Shown here one piece after another: positions 5,640 to 14,144 of a DNA stretch of 32,760 bases. The notes beneath the pieces were generated by a model. That model made no database searches. It saw only the letters and a list, made by a program, of their open reading frames with translations, and had not been told where the DNA came from. The number at the start of each line of letters is the position of its first letter. Within the stretch, counting starts at the first letter, position 1. The translations under genes were made by a program, and so were the position numbers. The stretch covers positions 1-32,760 of IMG/VR virus record IMGVR_UViG_3300037493_003494. One strand, written 5' to 3'. This DNA comes from a virus.

Positions 5640-5690
5640 AGGTCATACCACTATTTCTCACTGCTTTATTATCACTTGTCAAGACTTTAT
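5640..5690 (-). promoter_or_regulatory. Candidate promoter region for the capsid gene
   Basis: On the minus strand there is a perfect TTGACA (5682-5677), followed closely by GTGATAATAAAG and an A/T-rich stretch, about 130 bp upstream of the capsid ATG. Spacing to a good -10 box is not standard: GATAAT is too close and the hexamers 16-18 bp away (around GAGAAA) are poor. Position supports a promoter; motif quality does not. Confidence 0.25.
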
Positions 5691-5804
5691 TTTTTAGCCA
5701 AAAAGGCCAAAAAATTTCGTGGGGGGCTATATAGATAGAGAGATAAAAAAGGGGGGGTGCCGGGGTCGGGCTGGCGACGCCGCGCTTTTTCCCCTGGCAT
5801 CATC

Positions 5805-5865
5805 CAACCGCCGACCGCCGACCGCCAACCGCCGACCAACCGCCAACCGCCAACCGCCAACCGCC
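5805..5865. repeat. Tandem 7-bp repeat block 1 (ACCGCCR units)
   Basis: About eight head-to-tail heptamers of ACCGCCG or ACCGCCA, with one extra short ACC interruption. The heptad phase runs straight into the next block. Apparent reading frames across it (VGGWRLAVGG-type) only translate the repeat. Confidence 0.9.
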
Positions 5866-6009
5866 GATGATCGATGATCGATGATCGATGACCGATGATC
5901 GATGATCGATGACCGATGATCGATGACCGATGACCGATGATGACCGATGATCGATGATCGATGATCGATGACCGATGATCGATGACCGATGATGACCGAT
6001 CGATGATCG
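5866..6009. repeat. Tandem 7-bp repeat block 2 (ATGATCG / ATGACCG units)
   Basis: Roughly eighteen heptamers, ATGATCG or ATGACCG in an irregular order, with two 10-bp variants (ATGATGACCG). The block is dense in GATC and ATCGAT sites. It lies between the capsid promoter region and the minus-strand terminator at 6012-6042. The 470-bp stretch 5593-6063 otherwise holds two G-runs (5721-5726, 5751-5757) and no gene I can support. Possible roles are an iteron-like replication origin, a recombination or packaging hot spot, or neutral slippage DNA. Confidence 0.9.
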
Positions 6010-6011
6010 CC

Positions 6012-6042
6012 AAAAAAAAGCCGCTCCCATTTCGAGGAGCGG
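6012..6042 (-). terminator. Rho-independent terminator of the 60-aa minus gene
   Basis: On the minus strand CCGCTCC-TCGAAATG-GGAGCGG is followed by C and eight T residues. It is 21 bases beyond the stop of the gene at 6064-6246, which supports that gene being real. The repeat array starts immediately after it. Confidence 0.88.
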
Positions 6043-6063
6043 AGTGAGACCGACGATGACCGA

Positions 6064-6246
6064 TCACCACCCTAGTTTTTTGAAGAGGAGTTTCTCACAG
6101 GCTTCTCTCGTTTCGAAACTTTGAACTATGTGGTTAGTGCCGTCCCACATATTTCGGGCTTGGCAATCGGCTAGCGCTTCCGCCTCAGTGCCGATGAATA
6201 TATGGAACCCCGCAGGGACACTTAGTAAATGGTATTTCTCGTTCAC
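6064..6246 (-). CDS. Small hypothetical protein (60 aa)
   Basis: GTG start at 6246 with a G-rich stretch (GGGTGGGGAC) just before it. The product reads like a folded soluble protein (MNEKYHLLSVPAGFHIFIGT ... SFETREACEKLLFKKLGW), with no membrane segment or known motif. It is followed at a proper distance by a terminator and faces away from the plus operon starting at 6387, so it is probably a stand-alone gene. Family not recognised. Confidence 0.5.
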   Translation of the reverse strand: MNEKYHLLSVPAGFHIFIGTEAEALADCQARNMWDGTNHIVQSFETREACEKLLFKKLGW

Positions 6247-7974: not shown

Positions 7975-8007
7975 CCCCAGGGCATCACCCCCATCAAAAA
8001 TAAATTG

Positions 8008-8029
8008 AAATTAATCTCACAATTAATTT
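8008..8029. promoter_or_regulatory. Palindromic candidate operator in the divergent region
   Basis: AAATTAAT-CTCACA-ATTAATTT is a perfect 8-bp inverted repeat with a 6-bp spacer, extended imperfectly outward (TTG on the left, GCAA on the right). It lies 34 bp upstream of the HTH gene start and 125 bp before the plus gene at 8155, where an autoregulator would bind. Confidence 0.45.
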
Positions 8030-8154
8030 GCAATCGTTTCCGATTAGGTCCATTCTATTTGCATCGGAGCGGTTGGCCAGTAACCTGCCCCTCTGTTTTT
8101 TAAATCCTGAAAACCAGATTCAACTTTTCGTGTTACGATCCTCGGGGTCGCACG

Positions 8155-9249
8155 ATGGCGGTGAGCGAGGGGGACACAATCCCCATAGGTTGGTTCATCT
8201 CAGTCGGGGGATCGGCCCCCACTGAGGTGACTGAATCCACCGTCGTCATCGGCGAGACGAAGGACATCTCCAACCCCTATGACGGGGGGGCGGAGGTATG
8301 GGTACGGACCCTATCGGTCCGGTCCGCGTCGCAGGTTGCCGCAATCGCAGCGGCAGCGGCAGCGGACATCGTCGGTATCGCCGAGGCTGCCCGCCTAACG
8401 GCCATCATCACTGATGCCGGCATCGTCGGCTTGGCGGTGAAATGGGACACTTATTACGCATACGACGTAATCGGCCTACGGATGGGCCGAGACGTAGTCA
8501 CTGAATCATCAATCCGTGGCAACCTGTCCTACTGGCTTGAACGCCAGCAGGCCAGGGAAGCCAAAGCAGCGGCAGCGGCAGCAGCAGCGGCAGAGGCCGC
8601 AATCTGGTCAGGCATGCCGGACGTCATCAGCCTGACTCAGGCAGAATTCTCGCGGTGCGGATGGGTCGCGGCAGAACAGGGCCGCCTAACAATGACAGGC
8701 GGACCAGACTCATCTCACGTCCCATCCGACGGCGAGATGTATCTCTTTCGGCGGGACGTGGAAACGGAAGGATACAACTTCCTGAATCAGGGCCGAGGCG
8801 GATTTGTGGCGACCGGTCACCGGCATTTCAAGACCGTCGTCGTCCCTCACCCTCGGTACGACGCAGCAATATCGGCCGCACGGGCCGCATGGGCAAGCAA
8901 AACGGCAGTCACTCCGGATAGCCTCCTGTCGGTCATACGGACTTCAATGGGTGACATAGTCACGCCCATTGCTCCGCCTCCTCCAACGCAGGCGGAAATT
9001 CTCGCCGCAGAGGCCGCAGAACTCGCCGCTCAAAAAGCGGCCAACGCTACCCGTCGACAGGCTCGGTATGCCAGAGAAGCCGCAGAATTAGCAGCAATCC
9101 AAGCGGCCCGTTTAGCCAAGCGATATACAGGTCCGCTGCGACTGCCGCACAGTCAGCCGGAATCACCAGCACCGGACGCACCAGCAGCACCAGCTTCCTC
9201 GGTAAACCTCAATGATCCATGGGGGTCACTCAGCGCATTAAAACCATGA
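8155..9249 (+). CDS. Alanine-rich protein with two poly-Ala helical segments (364 aa), unknown
   Basis: Distinctly more GC-rich than its neighbours. The N-terminal ~50 residues look beta-rich (GDTIPIGWFISVGG). Two long Ala-rich helices follow at ~57-85 (ASQVAAIAAAAAADIVGIAE) and ~130-150 (QQAREAKAAAAAAAAAEAAI). A mixed central domain (~150-240) contains GWVAAEQGRLTMTGG and GYNFLNQGRGGFVATGHRHF. A further Ala/Glu/Arg coiled coil (AEILAAEAAELAAQKAAN) precedes a Pro-rich linker and the short end NLNDPWGSLSALKP. It leads the plus operon and overlaps the next start (ATGA). The ATG at 8155 is the first plausible one, without an A/T leader. Family not recognised; composition suggests horizontal origin or a structural or scaffolding role. 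Confidence 0.6.
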   Translation: MAVSEGDTIPIGWFISVGGSAPTEVTESTVVIGETKDISNPYDGGAEVWVRTLSVRSASQVAAIAAAAAADIVGIAEAARLTAIITDAGIVGLAVKWDTYYAYDVIGLRMGRDVVTESSIRGNLSYWLERQQAREAKAAAAAAAAAEAAIWSGMPDVISLTQAEFSRCGWVAAEQGRLTMTGGPDSSHVPSDGEMYLFRRDVETEGYNFLNQGRGGFVATGHRHFKTVVVPHPRYDAAISAARAAWASKTAVTPDSLLSVIRTSMGDIVTPIAPPPPTQAEILAAEAAELAAQKAANATRRQARYAREAAELAAIQAARLAKRYTGPLRLPHSQPESPAPDAPAAPASSVNLNDPWGSLSALKP

Positions 9250-9455
9250 CCACTACATACACTCTCAAATCAGCCGCATGGATTTACACTCCATCGATGA
9301 TCGCGCTGGCAATTAGCGAATACACCTCAAATCCTAAATGGAGCGTCAAGCTCCTGACTGAGGGTTTCAACCTCCCTGCAAAAGTCGCCAAAGGATTGGC
9401 GTCTGGGAAGATAGCCTATGTAGTGCAGAATGAGTCCGTTATTTTTACCGCCTAA
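9246..9455 (+). CDS. Small hypothetical protein (69 aa)
   Basis: ATG at 9246 overlaps the stop of the Ala-rich gene in ATGA; a longer frame from 9219 would overlap by 31 nt and is less likely. The product (MTTTYTLKSAAWIYTPSMIA ... LTEGFNLPAKVAKGLASGKI, ending YVVQNESVIFTA) looks like a compact folded domain. The segment NLPAKVAKGLASGKI could be a recognition helix pair, but no HTH is convincing. Its stop lies three bases before the 5' strand of the first hammerhead ribozyme. Function unknown. Confidence 0.65.
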   Translation: MTTTYTLKSAAWIYTPSMIALAISEYTSNPKWSVKLLTEGFNLPAKVAKGLASGKIAYVVQNESVIFTA

Positions 9456-9458
9456 CTA

Positions 9459-9505
9459 CCCACTGATGAGCCTGAGTTCAGGCGAAACCGCTCCGGCGGT
9501 CTGGG
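9459..9505 (+). ncRNA. Type I hammerhead ribozyme 1
   Basis: All core positions are present in order: open stem I CCCA (9459-9462), CTGATGA (9463-9469), stem II GCCTG/CAGGC with an AGTT loop (9470-9483), GAAA (9484-9487), stem III CCGC-TCCG-GCGG (9488-9499), then UC (9500-9501) and the stem I partner TGGG (9502-9505). The G10.1-C11.1 pair, the A15.1-U16.1 pair and a GUC cleavage triplet are all intact. Cleavage would fall between 9501 and 9502, leaving a 13-nt leader (TGGGCATAAAATC) before the next ATG. Stem I is only 4 bp and open, which defines type I. No loop-loop contact can be judged by eye. Confidence 0.88.
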
Positions 9506-9514
9506 CATAAAATC

Positions 9515-9649
9515 ATGAACAATTACGTCTTCGTCATCAAAAAAACGGTAATCTCAATCGCAGCCTTTTCCTATCACCAGGCCCTAGAAATCTTGGTCGC
9601 GACAGTTGGAATCGATTCGGCGTCACCTTACCTGTTTTCTGAACTCTAA
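9515..9649 (+). CDS. Small hypothetical protein (44 aa) behind hammerhead 1
   Basis: ATG AAC AAT begins 13 nt after the predicted ribozyme cleavage site; the frame encodes MNNYVFVIKKTVISIAAFSY, then HQALEILVATVGIDSASPYL and FSEL. This is an amphipathic beta-alpha-like mini protein with no predicted export signal. Its stop is four bases before the next start. The leader CATAAAATC is A/T-rich with no Shine-Dalgarno. Family not recognised. Confidence 0.55.
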   Translation: MNNYVFVIKKTVISIAAFSYHQALEILVATVGIDSASPYLFSEL

Positions 9650-9653
9650 ACCC

Positions 9654-9836
9654 ATGAAACTCCAAGAATTTCTTCGCCTTCGGGCCTTTGAAGAACCTTT
9701 CGTTTTATCAGGTGAAAAATGGCAATTCGTCACGGTTCGCCGTGATGACGGTGCGGAAGATATCGGTGTCTATCGCTTTGCGACGGACCTTTGCTATAAT
9801 TATGCAGACTTTCGGAAAGCGTACAATTTGGCCTGA
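9654..9836 (+). CDS. Small hypothetical protein (60 aa)
   Basis: Start chosen at ATG 9654 because the longer frame from 9606 would run into the preceding gene. The product is soluble and mixed alpha/beta: MKLQEFLRLRAFEEPFVLSG, EKWQFVTVRRDDGAEDIGVY, then RFATDLCYNYADFRKAYNLA. No recognised motif. The TGA stop directly touches an RNA hairpin element at 9837-9883. One of a train of accessory genes. Confidence 0.65.
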   Translation: MKLQEFLRLRAFEEPFVLSGEKWQFVTVRRDDGAEDIGVYRFATDLCYNYADFRKAYNLA

Positions 9837-9883
9837 CCTATCCTCCGCGCATCATCGCTCCGGCGGTGGTGCGAAAGGGTAGG
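9837..9883 (+). ncRNA. Unassigned structured intercistronic RNA element
   Basis: Outer helix CCTATCC (9837-9843) with GGGTAGG (9877-9883, one G-U), internal loop TCCGC against GAAA, and a 10-bp inner helix (9849-9858 with 9863-9872, two G-U) capped by TCCG. It begins at the base after a stop codon. It shares the 12-mer CGCTCCGGCGGT with hammerhead 1 and also has a GAAA on the 3' side, but it lacks CTGANGA and a third helix, so it is not a hammerhead as it stands. It precedes the gene at 9919 by 35 nt. Confidence 0.5.
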
Positions 9884-9918
9884 CCAGAAGCCTCCAGATC
9901 GGTTCAAGAAATAAAATT

Positions 9919-10299
9919 ATGAGTGAGCATAAAAACACCAGTTTCAAAATCCGTCGCGACGGCGAGCGTGCGTTGGCATTCAGTGGGCGGATTATCGGCC
10001 AGGCCGACGACAAAAGCCACAACAGCACCCGCTGGGAGGCAGTCACAATCTATCGCACGGCGTCCGGTAGGATTGTCGCCAAAGTCGAAGACCGGACTCA
10101 ATGGCAGGGAGAGAGTGACCATATCCGCGCGGACAGTTTCGCGAAGGCTAACGAGGCGATCCGCTATCTCCGTTTCGCGAATGACTGGTACGAATGCGAC
10201 GGTTACGAAGGCATCTTGCCGGAGGCCGCCCAAGAGGCCATCGAAGATGCGGCAAAGAATGATGAGGAGTTCTCGACCGCATTCACCGAAACTATATAA
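9919..10299 (+). CDS. Conserved accessory protein (126 aa), function unknown
   Basis: Leader AATAAAATT directly before ATG, typical for this genome. Segments FSGRIIGQADDKSHNSTRWE, AVTIYRTASGRIVAKVEDRT, FAKANEAIRYLRFAN and GILPEAAQEAIEDAAK recall a family found in phage and plasmid accessory regions (an RWxxxxxYRTxxGKxV block followed by an acidic helix). No catalytic motif. Cytosolic by appearance. It is followed by the 133-aa gene, another accessory family of the same kind, with a 15-base gap. Confidence 0.72.
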   Translation: MSEHKNTSFKIRRDGERALAFSGRIIGQADDKSHNSTRWEAVTIYRTASGRIVAKVEDRTQWQGESDHIRADSFAKANEAIRYLRFANDWYECDGYEGILPEAAQEAIEDAAKNDEEFSTAFTETI

Positions 10300-10314
10300 C
10301 CCACTCATAAACCT

Positions 10315-10716
10315 ATGGCCACACTATCAAAAAACGGCACTGAAATCGTCCGCTTTGACCGATTAAAAGCGTCCTACTCAATCCGCTCCAACGGAAAAGT
10401 CCTCAAGAACGAAGGTTTCGGCTGGAAACTTTGCGCGCTTAAACCGGGCAAGACGTCGCAAGATTTGAGAACCTCACTTGAGAACAGAGAGGCCTCTCTC
10501 TCACCTGAGTACCGGGCATACCGGAAAGCCGTGCAGGCGGAGTTCCCGCTTTCGGAGAGGTGGCAATATCTCACCTTGCGAGATCTTCTAGGTTCAGACC
10601 TTGACGGTATTTACACAGACCTTCAGGACCGTCGAATTTACACGGATTTAGACACGCTACAGGAACTTCGCGAACTCCAACTAGCGTCCCTCAATTCGCG
10701 AACAGTAACCCACTGA
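10315..10716 (+). CDS. Conserved accessory protein (133 aa), function unknown
   Basis: MATLSKNGTEIVRFDRLKAS, SYSIRSNGKVLKNEGFGWKL, PEYRAYRKAVQAEFPLSERW and a following acidic C-terminal half match the layout of a phage/plasmid accessory family I recognise but that has no known activity. The leader before ATG is CATAAACCT. The TGA stop (10714-10716) lies inside the CTGACGA core of the second hammerhead ribozyme, so terminating ribosomes would sit on the ribozyme. No unusual composition. Confidence 0.72.
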   Translation: MATLSKNGTEIVRFDRLKASYSIRSNGKVLKNEGFGWKLCALKPGKTSQDLRTSLENREASLSPEYRAYRKAVQAEFPLSERWQYLTLRDLLGSDLDGIYTDLQDRRIYTDLDTLQELRELQLASLNSRTVTH

Positions 10717-10762
10717 CGAGCTGACGAAATTTCAGCGAAACCGCTTCCGGAGCGGTATGGGT
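10708..10762 (+). ncRNA. Type I hammerhead ribozyme 2
   Basis: Stem I ACCCA (10708-10712) pairs with TGGGT (10758-10762). CTGACGA is at 10713-10719. Stem II GCTGA/TCAGC with a 7-nt loop spans 10720-10736. GAAA is at 10737-10740. Stem III CCGCT-TCCGG-AGCGG spans 10741-10755. UA follows at 10756-10757. All invariant nucleotides are present and the cleavage triplet is GUA, an active variant. The cut would fall between 10757 and 10758, leaving a 19-nt A-rich leader before the ATG at 10777. Relative to ribozyme 1, stems II and III differ in length and sequence while the core is kept, which is covariation-like evidence. Confidence 0.88.
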
Positions 10763-10776
10763 AAAAATAAAACATC

Positions 10777-11055
10777 ATGTACGCAATTCAAACCAAAAAA
10801 CTATCGGCCACAAACAGTCGCGGAGCGCGGATCAAGGCGACGCTTGCGAGCGAGGGCAGCATAACTGTGTCCTACAACTACGCGATAAGCGAAGTCTCCA
10901 ACCACCGTGAGGCGGCCAATGCGCTACTTGCAAAACTCCATGTCTGGGACAAGGCCCCAAATGAGCAGGAGATAAACCGCTGGCGCTGGAAACTAGCGAC
11001 AGGCGAACTTTCGGACGGTTCCTACGCGCACGTTTGGACGGGAGACCTGCCATGA
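10777..11055 (+). CDS. Conserved accessory protein (92 aa) behind hammerhead 2
   Basis: Starts 19 nt after the predicted ribozyme cut, with an A-rich leader (TAAAAATAAAACATC). The sequence YAIQTKKLSATNSRGARIKA, TLASEGSITVSYNYAISEVS, NHREAANALLAKLHVWD and the end DGSYAHVWTGDLP matches a small phage/plasmid protein type (RIKA...SI.V.Y ... AA..L...L.W ... G..YVFV). Function unknown. Its stop overlaps the next start (ATGA). Confidence 0.72.
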   Translation: MYAIQTKKLSATNSRGARIKATLASEGSITVSYNYAISEVSNHREAANALLAKLHVWDKAPNEQEINRWRWKLATGELSDGSYAHVWTGDLP

Positions 11056-11297
11056 ATAGCAACCATACTCCAGGACATTGGCCACTTAAGGTCACAAAAG
11101 TTGACGATTTTTTCACCTTAACAACGAACCAAGGGAACCATTACGCGAAGACCTTTGATCCTTTCGCCGCACACTTAATCTCGCTCGCGCCTGACTTGCT
11201 CGCGGCCCTTGAGCGTCTCGCGCATCCAATGGCGGACGACGAGGATCTTGAGAATGCTCGGGAGCTAATCGCCAAGGCCAAGGGAGCTGGCCAATGA
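11052..11297 (+). CDS. Small conserved phage protein (81 aa)
   Basis: ATG at 11052 overlaps the upstream stop as ATGA; a longer frame from 11034 is unlikely. The N-terminal half (MNSNHTPGHWPLKVTKVDDF) is followed by a typical helical end, HLISLAPDLLAALERLAHPM, then ADDEDLENARELIAKAKGAG. The APDLLAALERL...ARxxIAKAKG pattern recurs in many phage small proteins of unknown role. Stop overlaps the next start (ATGA). Confidence 0.72.
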   Translation: MNSNHTPGHWPLKVTKVDDFFTLTTNQGNHYAKTFDPFAAHLISLAPDLLAALERLAHPMADDEDLENARELIAKAKGAGQ

Positions 11298-11488
11298 CTC
11301 TCCAAGAGATCCAATCGGCGGTCTTAGCCGGCCAGAAAGTCCACTGGCAGACTAAAGCCTACGAAATCGTGCATGATAAAATCGGCCAATGGCTAGTCGT
11401 ATGCCGCGAAACCGGCGGATGTTGGGGACTAGTTTGGGCTGACGGCGCGACAATGAACGGCAAACCTTGGGACTTCTTCGTTGGGTAA
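11294..11488 (+). CDS. Small conserved phage protein (64 aa)
   Basis: MTLQEIQSAVLAGQKVHWQT, KAYEIVHDKIGQWLVVCRET, then GGCWGLVWADGATMNGKPWD and FFVG: a compact all-beta mini protein of a type often seen in phage accessory operons (Y.V..D..GQWLI.C...G...GL.W.DG..LNG...DF). No function known. Translationally coupled to the previous gene through ATGA. Confidence 0.72.
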   Translation: MTLQEIQSAVLAGQKVHWQTKAYEIVHDKIGQWLVVCRETGGCWGLVWADGATMNGKPWDFFVG

Positions 11489-11506
11489 ATTTAGAGAATA
11501 AAAATT

Positions 11507-11773
11507 ATGATAACAATATCACCGTCAGAAATGGAATCTTTGAAAGCTCAAATCGGCAATGCGATTGCTCGGAGCATATCAAGCAATGAAATTGTCACTC
11601 TCAAGATTAATGGAGAAACTGGAGACGCTTTGGAGGCGGTCAAATGTGTCACTGACTGGCCAACAGGTTATTCTGTTATCGATTACGAGGGAGAAGACCG
11701 CATGGAAATTTGGGGATTTGAAGACTCAAGCGATACTATCTGGAGACTGAGCATTACTTTCAGTGGAAACTAA
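11507..11773 (+). CDS. Small conserved protein (88 aa)
   Basis: Preceded by the full leader AATAAAAATT. Residues MITISPSEMESLKAQIGNAI, then DALEAVKCVTDWPTGYSVID and YEGEDRMEIWGFED. The DWPTGYxVxDYEGED block is characteristic of a small phage/plasmid family of unknown function. No membrane or signal segment. The six-base gap to the next gene consists of the next leader itself (TAAAAATT). Confidence 0.68.
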   Translation: MITISPSEMESLKAQIGNAIARSISSNEIVTLKINGETGDALEAVKCVTDWPTGYSVIDYEGEDRMEIWGFEDSSDTIWRLSITFSGN

Positions 11774-11778
11774 AAATT

Positions 11779-11970
11779 ATGGAAACACATTCAAAAAAAG
11801 TAGGGACAACCATCACCAGTATTCGCGCGGATTGGGATCAGGCATCATGCGCTATCATGGTCCGGCATTCGGACTGCGGATACGATGCGGAATGGGAGGC
11901 TACGGGTACTCAGGTTGCGGATTTCTGGCATGATTGGGAAGCCGCATTAGAATATTTCAGCAAAGACTAA
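11779..11970 (+). CDS. Small hypothetical protein (63 aa)
   Basis: Leader TAAAAATT directly before ATG; the upstream TAA is part of it. The product METHSKKVGTTITSIRADWD, QASCAIMVRHSDCGYDAEWE, ATGTQVADFWHDWEAALEYF has regular beta/alpha alternation and a Trp-rich end. No known motif. Probably soluble. Confidence 0.62.
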   Translation: METHSKKVGTTITSIRADWDQASCAIMVRHSDCGYDAEWEATGTQVADFWHDWEAALEYFSKD

Positions 11971-11985
11971 AAAAACTAAATAAAA

Positions 11986-12165
11986 ATGAGCGTTTACACC
12001 GAAAATGGATATTCAAACCGCCGGGAGTACCTTGACTCTCTCCGCGCGGAGTACGGACGAGAGATCGTTGATGCCTTAACGAGCTTTCTTGGGGCGAGCG
12101 AGGATTTCGACGGTCTGGTAACCCAATTGGAGGATAATCGAGAACTTTGGAGGCGCGAACTATGA
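11986..12165 (+). CDS. Small conserved phage protein (59 aa)
   Basis: ATG with leader AACTAAATAAAA. The product MSVYTENGYSNRREYLDSLR, AEYGREIVDALTSFLGASED, FDGLVTQLEDNRELWRREL matches a small conserved phage/plasmid type (YTxNGYxNRREYLxxLxxxYG ... FDGLVTxLED). Helical, cytosolic. An antisense frame across it is a shadow. Stop overlaps the next start (ATGA). Confidence 0.75.
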   Translation: MSVYTENGYSNRREYLDSLRAEYGREIVDALTSFLGASEDFDGLVTQLEDNRELWRREL

Positions 12166-12428
12166 TTAAATTTAAGAAATATCACCCACTAAATTCAGTA
12201 CCTGTTTGGAAGGCTGACTATAAAGACTGTAATATTGAAACAGGGGGAAACGGAGCTTATATTTTCGTAACAAACGAATTCGATTACGATACGTTTTTTC
12301 GTAATGGGCGCGATAATTGGGAAATTTCAACGGATAATGGTATCACAAAAAAATGGACCGGACCTGATTTTCAGGTGCTATTGAAGGCGATTGAGGAAAT
12401 TCCGGAGGAGGAGGAGGAGGAAAAATGA
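12162..12428 (+). CDS. Small hypothetical protein with poly-Glu tail (88 aa)
   Basis: Start taken at 12162 (ATGA overlap) rather than 12147. The product starts MIKFKKYHPLNSVPVWKADY, with a mixed core (GAYIFVTNEFDYDTFFRNGR) and the tail AIEEIPEEEEEEK. The Glu codons are all GAG and build a GGAGGAGGAGG run that also serves as Shine-Dalgarno for the next gene, so the tail may exist partly for that reason. More A/T-rich than neighbours in its first half. Family not recognised. Confidence 0.62.
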   Translation: MIKFKKYHPLNSVPVWKADYKDCNIETGGNGAYIFVTNEFDYDTFFRNGRDNWEISTDNGITKKWTGPDFQVLLKAIEEIPEEEEEEK

Positions 12429-12526
12429 GGGCTAAACATCTAGAAACTCTCGGATGCGTTATGCTGGCCACTCTCTTTCTCGCGCCATTTATATACGTTT
12501 TAGCGTGCGAAATGATGGGATTCTGA
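12425..12526 (+). CDS. Tiny membrane protein (33 aa)
   Basis: ATGA overlap with the previous gene and a very strong Shine-Dalgarno (GGAGGAGGAGGAAAA). MRAKHLETLGCVMLATLFLA followed by PFIYVLACEMMGF is one transmembrane helix with a positive N-terminus, so probably N-in. No further function can be given. Followed by 70 bp non-coding containing an A/T-rich stretch (GGTATATAAAG) that may be a promoter or only the next leader. Confidence 0.5.
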   Translation: MRAKHLETLGCVMLATLFLAPFIYVLACEMMGF

Positions 12527-12596
12527 GAACAGGGAGGGGCGCGACTCCGATTAACGCGCATAATTTCGGTATATAAAGCAAACCAAATTCAAAATA

Positions 12597-12878
12597 ATGA
12601 TATTAACGATTCAATCTAAAAGTAATGCCCAAACAATTGTTGATCTTTTCAACGCGATAGTCGCGGGCGAGGAGAGCGAGCATCAGGCTCAACCGCTGAG
12701 TATTTATGATGAGCATAAGCACATTTGCTCGTTGGTCGCTCCGGACGGGACGCAAATTCTTGAGCTGATCATCGAGCGTGAGCGGGGGGACGTTCTTATT
12801 CCCGCGCCGCTTCCGGAGGGTGAGGAGGCTGGTGGAAAAGCATGGCCTAGAAGCAAAACCAAAAATAAGGGAAAATAA
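12597..12878 (+). CDS. Small hypothetical protein (93 aa)
   Basis: Leader TTCAAAATA before ATG. The N-terminal domain MILTIQSKSNAQTIVDLFNA, then IYDEHKHICSLVAPDGTQIL and ELIIERERGD, looks like a folded beta/alpha unit. The tail PAPLPEGEEAGGKAWPRSKT is disordered and basic at the end. No motif recognised. Stop TAA at 12876-12878 forms part of an A/T-rich leader-like string before the next frame. Confidence 0.55.
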   Translation: MILTIQSKSNAQTIVDLFNAIVAGEESEHQAQPLSIYDEHKHICSLVAPDGTQILELIIERERGDVLIPAPLPEGEEAGGKAWPRSKTKNKGK

Positions 12879-12910
12879 TTATCATCATCCTCCCCCACTG
12901 GAAGATCCAG

Positions 12911-13117
12911 GTGATGGGAGCGTTGGGGTGGGCGGACGTTAAGAGCCGCGATTCCAACGCTCGGTTTACCACCGTAGAATTTCCCACGCGCAAGCAGGCG
13001 GAGGATTGCGCGAAACTAATAAACCCGCCGGACTACTCCCATGGAAAAGTTAGAACAGTTCCCGCGCACCTTTTACCAGAGGACTACGACATCTATCCGG
13101 TAGGCATAAAACGGTAA
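12911..13117 (+). CDS. Small conserved phage-type protein (68 aa, start uncertain)
   Basis: The frame with a standard start begins GTG-ATG at 12911/12914, giving MMGALGWADVKSRDSNARFT, TVEFPTRKQAEDCAKLINPP. Upstream, the same frame continues in a protein-like way (IIILPHWKIQV) to 12881, where ATC follows a perfect copy of the genome's leader (AAAATAATT). So the true start may be a non-standard ATC, or an ATG lost by mutation. The family pattern (K.Q.MG.LGWAD.K ... TRxxAE) suggests the upstream residues belong to the protein. Function unknown. Confidence 0.55.
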   Translation: MMGALGWADVKSRDSNARFTTVEFPTRKQAEDCAKLINPPDYSHGKVRTVPAHLLPEDYDIYPVGIKR

Positions 13118-13332
13118 ATTCCAATTTCAATTCTAAGCATCAAAAACAGGCGAACCATATCAACACATCATCCGACATTAAAAAGCTCCCTACGAGCCTC
13201 CTAGAGCGTTTAAAGAGCATCCAAGCAGAGCGGATGAGCGGTATCTTCCGCTCGGCGGGCTTCAGCCCCAACTTCTTCAAACCGAATGCGTCCGCTCCGT
13301 CAGGAAGCGGTTTAAGCATTTCGTGTTTGTAA
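13054..13332 (+). other. Open frame without a standard start, possibly a decayed or frameshifted gene
   Basis: In the -1 frame relative to the gene ending at 13117, the sequence is open for 92 codons. Its second half reads like protein: SSDIKKLPTSLLERLKSIQA, ERMSGIFRSAGFSPNFFKPN, ASAPSGSGLSISCL. The only ATG is at 13234 (32 codons left). It ends one base before the terminator hairpin, as a real last gene would. It could be a gene with a non-standard start, the -1 frameshift extension of the preceding gene, or a remnant. This covers much of the 370-bp interval 13118-13487 that has no confirmed gene. Confidence 0.35.
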
Positions 13333-13333
13333 G

Positions 13334-13374
13334 AAGCCTATCCCCTTTTTTAGAAAGGGGATGGCTTATCTTTT
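13334..13374 (+). terminator. Rho-independent terminator closing the accessory operon
   Basis: AAGCC(T)ATCCCCTTT pairs with AAAGGGGATGGCTT, a 14-bp stem with one bulged T and a short TTTAG loop, followed by ATCTTTT. It separates the accessory train from the regulated unit starting at 13488. Confidence 0.88.
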
Positions 13375-13415
13375 AGATGAGTAGAAGGGTTATTGGTAAC
13401 TTTTGGGTAAGCATT

Positions 13416-13477
13416 GGTAAATTTACTTTTAGGTTATTCCAGGTTACTTGACAAATAGGTTGTGGTAAATTTACTTT
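13416..13477 (+). promoter_or_regulatory. Promoter/operator region with duplicated palindrome
   Basis: The 14-mer GGTAAATTTACTTT occurs at 13416-13429 and again at 13464-13477, 48 bp apart. Each copy contains the perfect 10-bp palindrome GTAAATTTAC. Between them is a perfect -35 box TTGACA (13448-13453), and the second palindrome falls where the -10 region would be. Related half-sites (GGTTAT, GGTTAC, GGTAAC) are scattered from 13389 to 13447. This is the layout of a repressor-controlled promoter for the gene at 13488. Confidence 0.6.
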
Positions 13478-13487
13478 ATTCTTACCA

Positions 13488-14144
13488 ATGAGTTATCTAG
13501 AAAACGGCGAAACATTAAGATCGGCCTTCCGATTGATGGGGCCGACAAAGCATGACATTGATCCGGCGAAGTCCGAGGTCATTAATAACATCCGCCGGGC
13601 AATGGACTATGGCGAGATTGACGCGGTTCGCGCATTCAATTCGATGCGGAACGTGAAGAGTGGCGTGTTGGTTTTTGATCGAATTCACCGAATCTGGCGC
13701 GGGTGCGATTGGGTTCCTACGGACGAGGAAGCGCGTAAGGACTTTGTTCTTGGCCAACTGTCTCAACTTCGACGCGACATGAATCGTGAGCTTGCGGAAA
13801 TCCGAAAGGAGTTAAACGAGCTTCGGCACACTAGGTCTAGGAGGAAAAAGGAAGCGGACATCCAGCCTCAAACTGAAGAACCTGACCCGAACATCGAAAG
13901 CTACTCCGTAGAATTAAAAAACGGTCCACTGACGATTTACCGTGATGAAAATGAGCCGGACAATGAATGGCAGAGACGCAAGGACCATGTGCTGAACCAG
14001 CGCGTCATGTTCCTGAACATAAGCGGGAAAAGCGGAACACCGGAGCAGGAAGACTACATTAAGCGAATGAATTTTCCGCCGAATAAACCTCCCGCGAAGC
14101 CGGCCAATTCTTTGGAATCGATCATTACCCAGGCGTGGACCTAA
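13488..14144 (+). CDS. Hypothetical protein with central coiled coil (218 aa), possible regulator
   Basis: The ATG lies 11 bp after the second operator palindrome, in a TTCTTACCA leader. The N-terminal domain (~1-80) contains EVINNIRRAMDYGEIDAVRA, FNSMRNVKSGVLVFDRIHRI and WRGCDWVP. A coiled coil with a basic end (~85-125: LRRDMNRELAEIRKELNELR, HTRSRRKKE) is followed by an acidic linker and a C-terminal helix pair. No HTH is evident. A control position directly behind its own operators, and the regulator-like excisionase gene behind it, suggest a regulatory or DNA-associated role, but the family is not recognised. Confidence 0.6.
   Translation: MSYLENGETLRSAFRLMGPTKHDIDPAKSEVINNIRRAMDYGEIDAVRAFNSMRNVKSGVLVFDRIHRIWRGCDWVPTDEEARKDFVLGQLSQLRRDMNRELAEIRKELNELRHTRSRRKKEADIQPQTEEPDPNIESYSVELKNGPLTIYRDENEPDNEWQRRKDHVLNQRVMFLNISGKSGTPEQEDYIKRMNFPPNKPPAKPANSLESIITQAWT

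Follow-up and report, generated by a model that had tools for sequence, protein, structure and literature searches.

A predicted type I hammerhead ribozyme at a phage gene junction whose core UGA doubles as the stop codon of the upstream gene

Why should a protein-coding gene stop inside the catalytic core of a ribozyme? The question is raised by the viral record IMGVR_UViG_3300037493_003494 (IMG/VR), of which positions 1 to 32,760 were analysed (hereafter the window, 32,760 nucleotides long), and in which a 133-aa reading frame runs into a hammerhead motif that we call HHR2. A preliminary description of this sequence had reported both a complete hammerhead and its overlap with the stop codon, and had proposed that a ribosome terminating there would hold the core single-stranded, and that self-cleavage could in this way be blocked or timed by upstream translation. 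The features discussed here are collected in Table 1.

Table 1. Positions in the window of HHR2, its parts and the neighbouring features.
Feature	Position	Strand	Sequence or detail	Basis
Upstream gene, 133 aa	10315-10716	+	stop TGA 10714-10716	ORF and 21 close homologs
Hammerhead ribozyme HHR2, type I	10708-10762	+		motif, minimum-energy fold, relatives
HHR2 helix I	10708-10712 / 10758-10762	+	ACCCA / TGGGT	
HHR2 catalytic core strand	10713-10719	+	CTGACGA (CUGACGA); contains the 133-aa gene's stop UGA 10714-10716	
HHR2 helix II	10720-10724 / 10732-10736	+	GCTGA / TCAGC	
HHR2 loop II	10725-10731	+	CGAAATT (CGAAAUU), 7 nt	
HHR2 conserved GAAA	10737-10740	+	last A paired with U10756 (A15.1-U16.1)	
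HHR2 helix III	10741-10745 / 10751-10755	+	CCGCT / AGCGG	
HHR2 cleavage triplet	10755-10757	+	GUA; cut expected between A10757 and U10758	
Downstream gene, 92 aa	10777-11055	+	PHROG 3199 (unknown function)	ORF, PHROG match
Hammerhead HHR1	9459-9505	+	core 9463-9469, GUC triplet; cut expected after C9501	motif, fold
Conserved hairpin 'element 2'	9830-9889	+	junction of 60-aa and 126-aa genes; stop TGA 9834-9836 in stem	fold z -4.99, relatives
RNA segment that cleavage at HHR1 and HHR2 would release	9502-10757	+		inferred

The hammerhead itself is borne out, with every element where the preliminary description had placed it. HHR2 carries the core CUGANGA...GAAA...NUH (as CUGACGA, GAAA and GUA at 10713-10757), ringed by three helices and including the A15.1-U16.1 pair, and since helices II and III are closed by loops while helix I is the open end, its topology, judged from fold and covariation, is type I. 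The unconstrained minimum-energy fold is exactly the hammerhead three-way junction, at -19.8 kcal/mol compared with a mean of -12.4 for shuffled sequences (z -2.65). A strict motif finder, which demands a perfect core, three helices and at least 14 pairs, returned two matches in the window, HHR1 and HHR2, whose cores begin at 9463 and 10713. Applied to both strands of 300 random windows generated by a Markov model to match its dinucleotide composition, the finder returned 0 matches. The position of the HHR2 cut is predicted from established hammerhead chemistry.

Comparison with relatives points the same way. The loop II of HHR2 is of a YGARANN type common to about 25 other phage hammerheads, and its exact sequence recurs in two hammerheads (L201 and L436) whose stems differ. 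Among 25 hammerheads of this loop type, compensatory variation is seen in all three helices, both sides having changed at 12 of the 15 pairs, and 99% of the alignment cells pair, compared with 24-38% when the partners are slid, a contrast that is inflated because members were selected partly by their pairing. With regard to a putative tertiary contact between the helix I region and loop II, the CGAAAUU loop and the flanking A residues fit a recurrent pattern. Within HHR2, a pseudoknot joining loop II to the 3' flank was considered and set aside as unconvincing, with at most 3-4 pairs by eye. Four other hammerheads (L082, L020, L102 and L116) have GGCA in loop II and TGCC or GCC in the 3' flank, a possible pseudoknot; pseudoknots of this kind have been reported for bacterial hammerheads.

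Rfam sees HHR2 weakly. At gathering thresholds no family matched in the window, the hammerhead families RF00163, RF00008 and RF02275 included, and the scores below threshold were 15.3 bits for HHR2 with RF00008 and 18.4 bits for HHR1 with RF02275, while a search of the window's hammerheads with RF00163 gave no match. The RAGATH-1-hammerhead family RF03152 scored 19.9 bits for HHR2 and 20.4 bits for HHR1, below its gathering cut-off of 56.3; it has the same order of elements as HHR2 (open helix I, CUGANGA, helix II, CGAAAC, helix III hairpin, GUH, helix I), but only positions 26-77 of its 77 are covered by HHR2, whose helix II stretch is longer. The identification of HHR2 therefore rests on core, fold and relatives rather than on an Rfam call.

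The overlap is borne out too. The TGA at 10714-10716 closes the frame 10315-10716, and the same three bases are the UGA of the CUGA core. We regard this frame as a real gene from its close relatives, found in 21 viral contigs at 64-74% identity, mostly over residues 1 to 121-129 of 133 (with a weak 22nd match), so that the alignment extends to about ten residues short of its end. Searches of Pfam and PHROG with the 133-aa gene found no match, nor did tblastn or blastn of this gene and four other queries against named phages, leaving Pseudomonas phage PaP3 as the sole annotated comparison. In the relatives, the stop overlaps the apparent start of the next gene (TTGA or GTGA), the two genes being directly joined; the gene order beside them differs from that of the window, and the surrounding stretches that were retrieved contained no hammerhead. 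Here, therefore, the 3' end of the gene has a different neighbour, the ribozyme, and the absence of a hammerhead at the equivalent place beside relatives of the flanking gene indicates that the ribozyme is not essential there.

To see where upstream genes stop relative to hammerheads more generally, we used a sample from viral contigs of at least 409 hammerheads accepted by the motif finder, at 268 loci. The search patterns began at the CTGA of the core and were thus blind to the upstream frame, with no selection for it. An upstream frame of at least 60 codons was present for 363 of the hammerheads listed, where genes were called mechanically and, even after clustering, some loci still come from similar phages. 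Among the matches listed, 113 of these 363 have the stop at offsets -10 to -7, abutting helix I, 25 have it at -3 and 51, about one in seven, at +1, which is exactly the core UGA; counted by family, the core UGA serves as stop in 40 of 267 upstream gene families. The median distance from the stop to the next ATG is 72 nt among the matches listed, about the length of the ribozyme plus a leader, and the distance from the cut to the next ATG has a median of 27 nt (quartiles 24-36) in 385 of the 409 viral hammerheads listed. Directly 5' of helix I, and again just 3' of it, A is strongly preferred among the matches listed, even where no stop lies there, so that a UAA stop next to helix I benefits the ribozyme too, and the cluster of stops at -9 and -8 may come in part from the ribozyme's own preference for an A 5' of helix I. 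We also considered a designed safety net of stops in all three frames within the ribozyme and rejected it, its frequency (158 of 382 among the matches listed) being near a rough hand estimate for a random stretch of equal length (about 0.38).

HHR2 does not stand by itself in the window. HHR1, an intact second copy, lies 1.25 kb upstream; the stop before it, TAA at 9453-9455, falls outside the ribozyme (offset -10), and the next ATG, at 9515, comes about 13 nt past the cut. The two belong to a run of genes on one strand that extends from about 8155 to a terminator-like hairpin at 13338, with no other terminator-like site on that strand, and the segment between the two cuts holds four genes (9515-9649, 9654-9836, 9919-10299 and 10315-10716). 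That hairpin (13338-13364) is strong, with a T-rich tail, and is the sole one found on the + strand in 8000-13500. Elsewhere in the window, on the minus strand at 5687-6070, ORFs of a repeated HRSSII/GHRSS peptide correspond to a short DNA repeat between longer genes.

We consider it probable, at roughly 0.78, that HHR2 is a self-cleaving type I hammerhead which processes a polycistronic phage transcript and is packed against its upstream gene, with the core UGA doubling as the stop codon. HHR1 and HHR2 would divide the one-strand run into units, and cleavage between A10757 and U10758 would yield an upstream mRNA ending in the core and hairpins II and III, with its stop retained, and a downstream mRNA with a short leader, beginning 19 nt before the ATG of the 92-aa gene. 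We infer such cleavage, these mRNA ends and any effect on mRNA stability. HHR2 abuts the upstream gene with no spare bases, and since the reading frame crosses the helix I 5' strand in the appropriate phase, the obligatory core UGA acts as the stop codon; the core overlap would then be an extreme case of tight packing, favoured since the core supplies its own stop. The overlap is real and recurrent, and is most simply accounted for by such packing. Against the processing reading count the scores of HHR2 under every Rfam cut-off, the lack of a hammerhead at the equivalent place beside relatives of the flanking gene, and an activity that is predicted from sequence.

The role itself has already been proposed. 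Perreault et al. (2011; PMC3088659) reported bacterial and prophage hammerheads in gene arrays, saw them flank phage genes, and proposed that they process long phage transcripts; their native hammerhead arrays, which share a complete core with HHR2, cleaved in vitro, and one array also did so in E. coli. The main text of that paper makes no mention of a stop codon, and where the upstream stop falls with respect to the core was apparently not examined there. A search of titles and abstracts in the open-access literature likewise found no paper about an overlap between a hammerhead and a stop codon. PaP3 (AY078382) carries a type I hammerhead on the complement strand (core at 44106), where, as at HHR2, the stop of the annotated upstream gene, orf67, abuts the ribozyme at helix I and the next gene follows shortly after; in contrast to HHR2, the orf67 stop is a UAA at offset -9, outside the core.

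An alternative is that the overlap is a matter of chance: because UGA is invariant in every hammerhead, any gene packed tightly against one is bound to end at that codon if its frame is right, and nothing need have been selected. The invariance of the core UGA and the tight packing of hammerhead junctions, as measured by the stop-to-ATG median among the matches listed, both fit this account, yet the choice of frame does not. Among the matches listed, 59 families have a frame that continues beyond helix I, and 40 of them end at +1, compared with the one third expected from random phase (binomial p about 7e-8), and when all close stops are taken together the frames are again biased, at 89:55:53 families (p 0.002) among the matches listed. 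Such a bias implies at least a preference for stopping at the core UGA over running on, and we regard a wholly unselected overlap as doubtful; in any event, the chance account refines the processing reading rather than contradicting it.

Control by the ribosome, as envisaged in the preliminary description, is an improbable explanation. It holds that a ribosome terminating at the core UGA keeps the core open, and that cleavage is thereby delayed or limited by translation of the 133-aa gene, to which the separation of the downstream gene is tied. As in a translation-gated RNA switch, the stop codon lies inside the structured core, the overlap recurs (51 of the 363 junctions listed) and the frame is biased towards it. 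There is also a precedent in the upstream domain of the TYMV 3'-UTR, where a stop codon within the RNA domain lets ribosomes, which cover about 16 nt beyond the stop, unfold that domain (PMC6265322). TYMV resembles HHR2 in that the stop lies inside structured RNA, which the terminating ribosome must unfold, but it is a plant RNA virus without a ribozyme, and an effect shown there is conjecture for HHR2 (PMC6265322). The preliminary interpretation is supported in part: with UGA 10714-10716 in the A site, a terminating ribosome would occlude the core together with some of helix II, and gating of HHR2 is geometrically plausible, but nothing found points to control of cleavage by translation. Nor is gating specific to the core overlap, because most hammerheads in the sample begin only a few bases from a stop codon and the same occlusion (of helix I and part of the core) would take place at the commoner offsets of -10 to -7, so that the overlap adds little. 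Homologs, whose comparison the preliminary description had suggested, do not keep the arrangement well, as a conserved translation-gated switch would have it: among the matches listed, homologous upstream genes of less than 95% identity form 30 pairs with at least one core-stop member, and because the overlap is common to both members in only 9, and the relatives of the 133-aa gene have no hammerhead nearby, we describe it as recurrent yet labile, easily gained and lost. The counts are explained by packing, and neither a regulatory partner nor an alternative fold was seen. The expected cut falls 41 nt beyond the stop and spares the upstream gene, so that no gating is needed to protect it. A more general version, in which phage hammerheads are placed so that upstream termination competes with folding, the terminating ribosome delaying the cut and translation timing the division of the transcript, with the core UGA as one of several suitable stop positions, seems to us as improbable. 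Least likely by our estimate is that HHR2 is inactive or in decay and just happens to sit between genes, as its low Rfam scores and the absence of a hammerhead from relatives might suggest, for all invariant core bases are kept, the three helices are intact, the fold is stable, loop II is of a recurrent type and a second intact copy lies upstream.

Another gene junction in the window holds a conserved hairpin, element 2. Its conserved strands are ACC(C/T)ATCCTCCGCGC and GCGAAAGGGTAGGCCA, and an unmatched internal loop (TCC / GAAA) interrupts the hairpin both in the window (9830-9889) and at the loci L551-L612. The exact pattern matched 62 viral contigs, at gene junctions, where the foot of the stem usually carries the TGA of the upstream gene and the next ATG follows after 26-35 nt (about 27). 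Element 2 had no match in Rfam, its scan matches in genome contigs look like chance and were discarded, and, unlike the window, the retrieved stretches carrying it (576 kb) contained no hammerheads. In many copies among L551-L612, the strand GGGTAGG could also engage a CTATCC farther downstream, just 3' of the hairpin, so that two alternative folds are suggested; the downstream part is missing from the window copy. Element 2 is thus a candidate new structured RNA that may fill the gene-junction niche of the hammerheads.

Taken across the sample, the systematic placement of phage hammerheads, with a stop codon that abuts the ribozyme or lies within it and a start codon about 27 nt past the cut, supports their role as gene-junction processors and offers a directly testable design. 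The overlap, in turn, shows that, across many unrelated phage genes, invariant bases of a catalytic RNA can have a second function as a coding signal.
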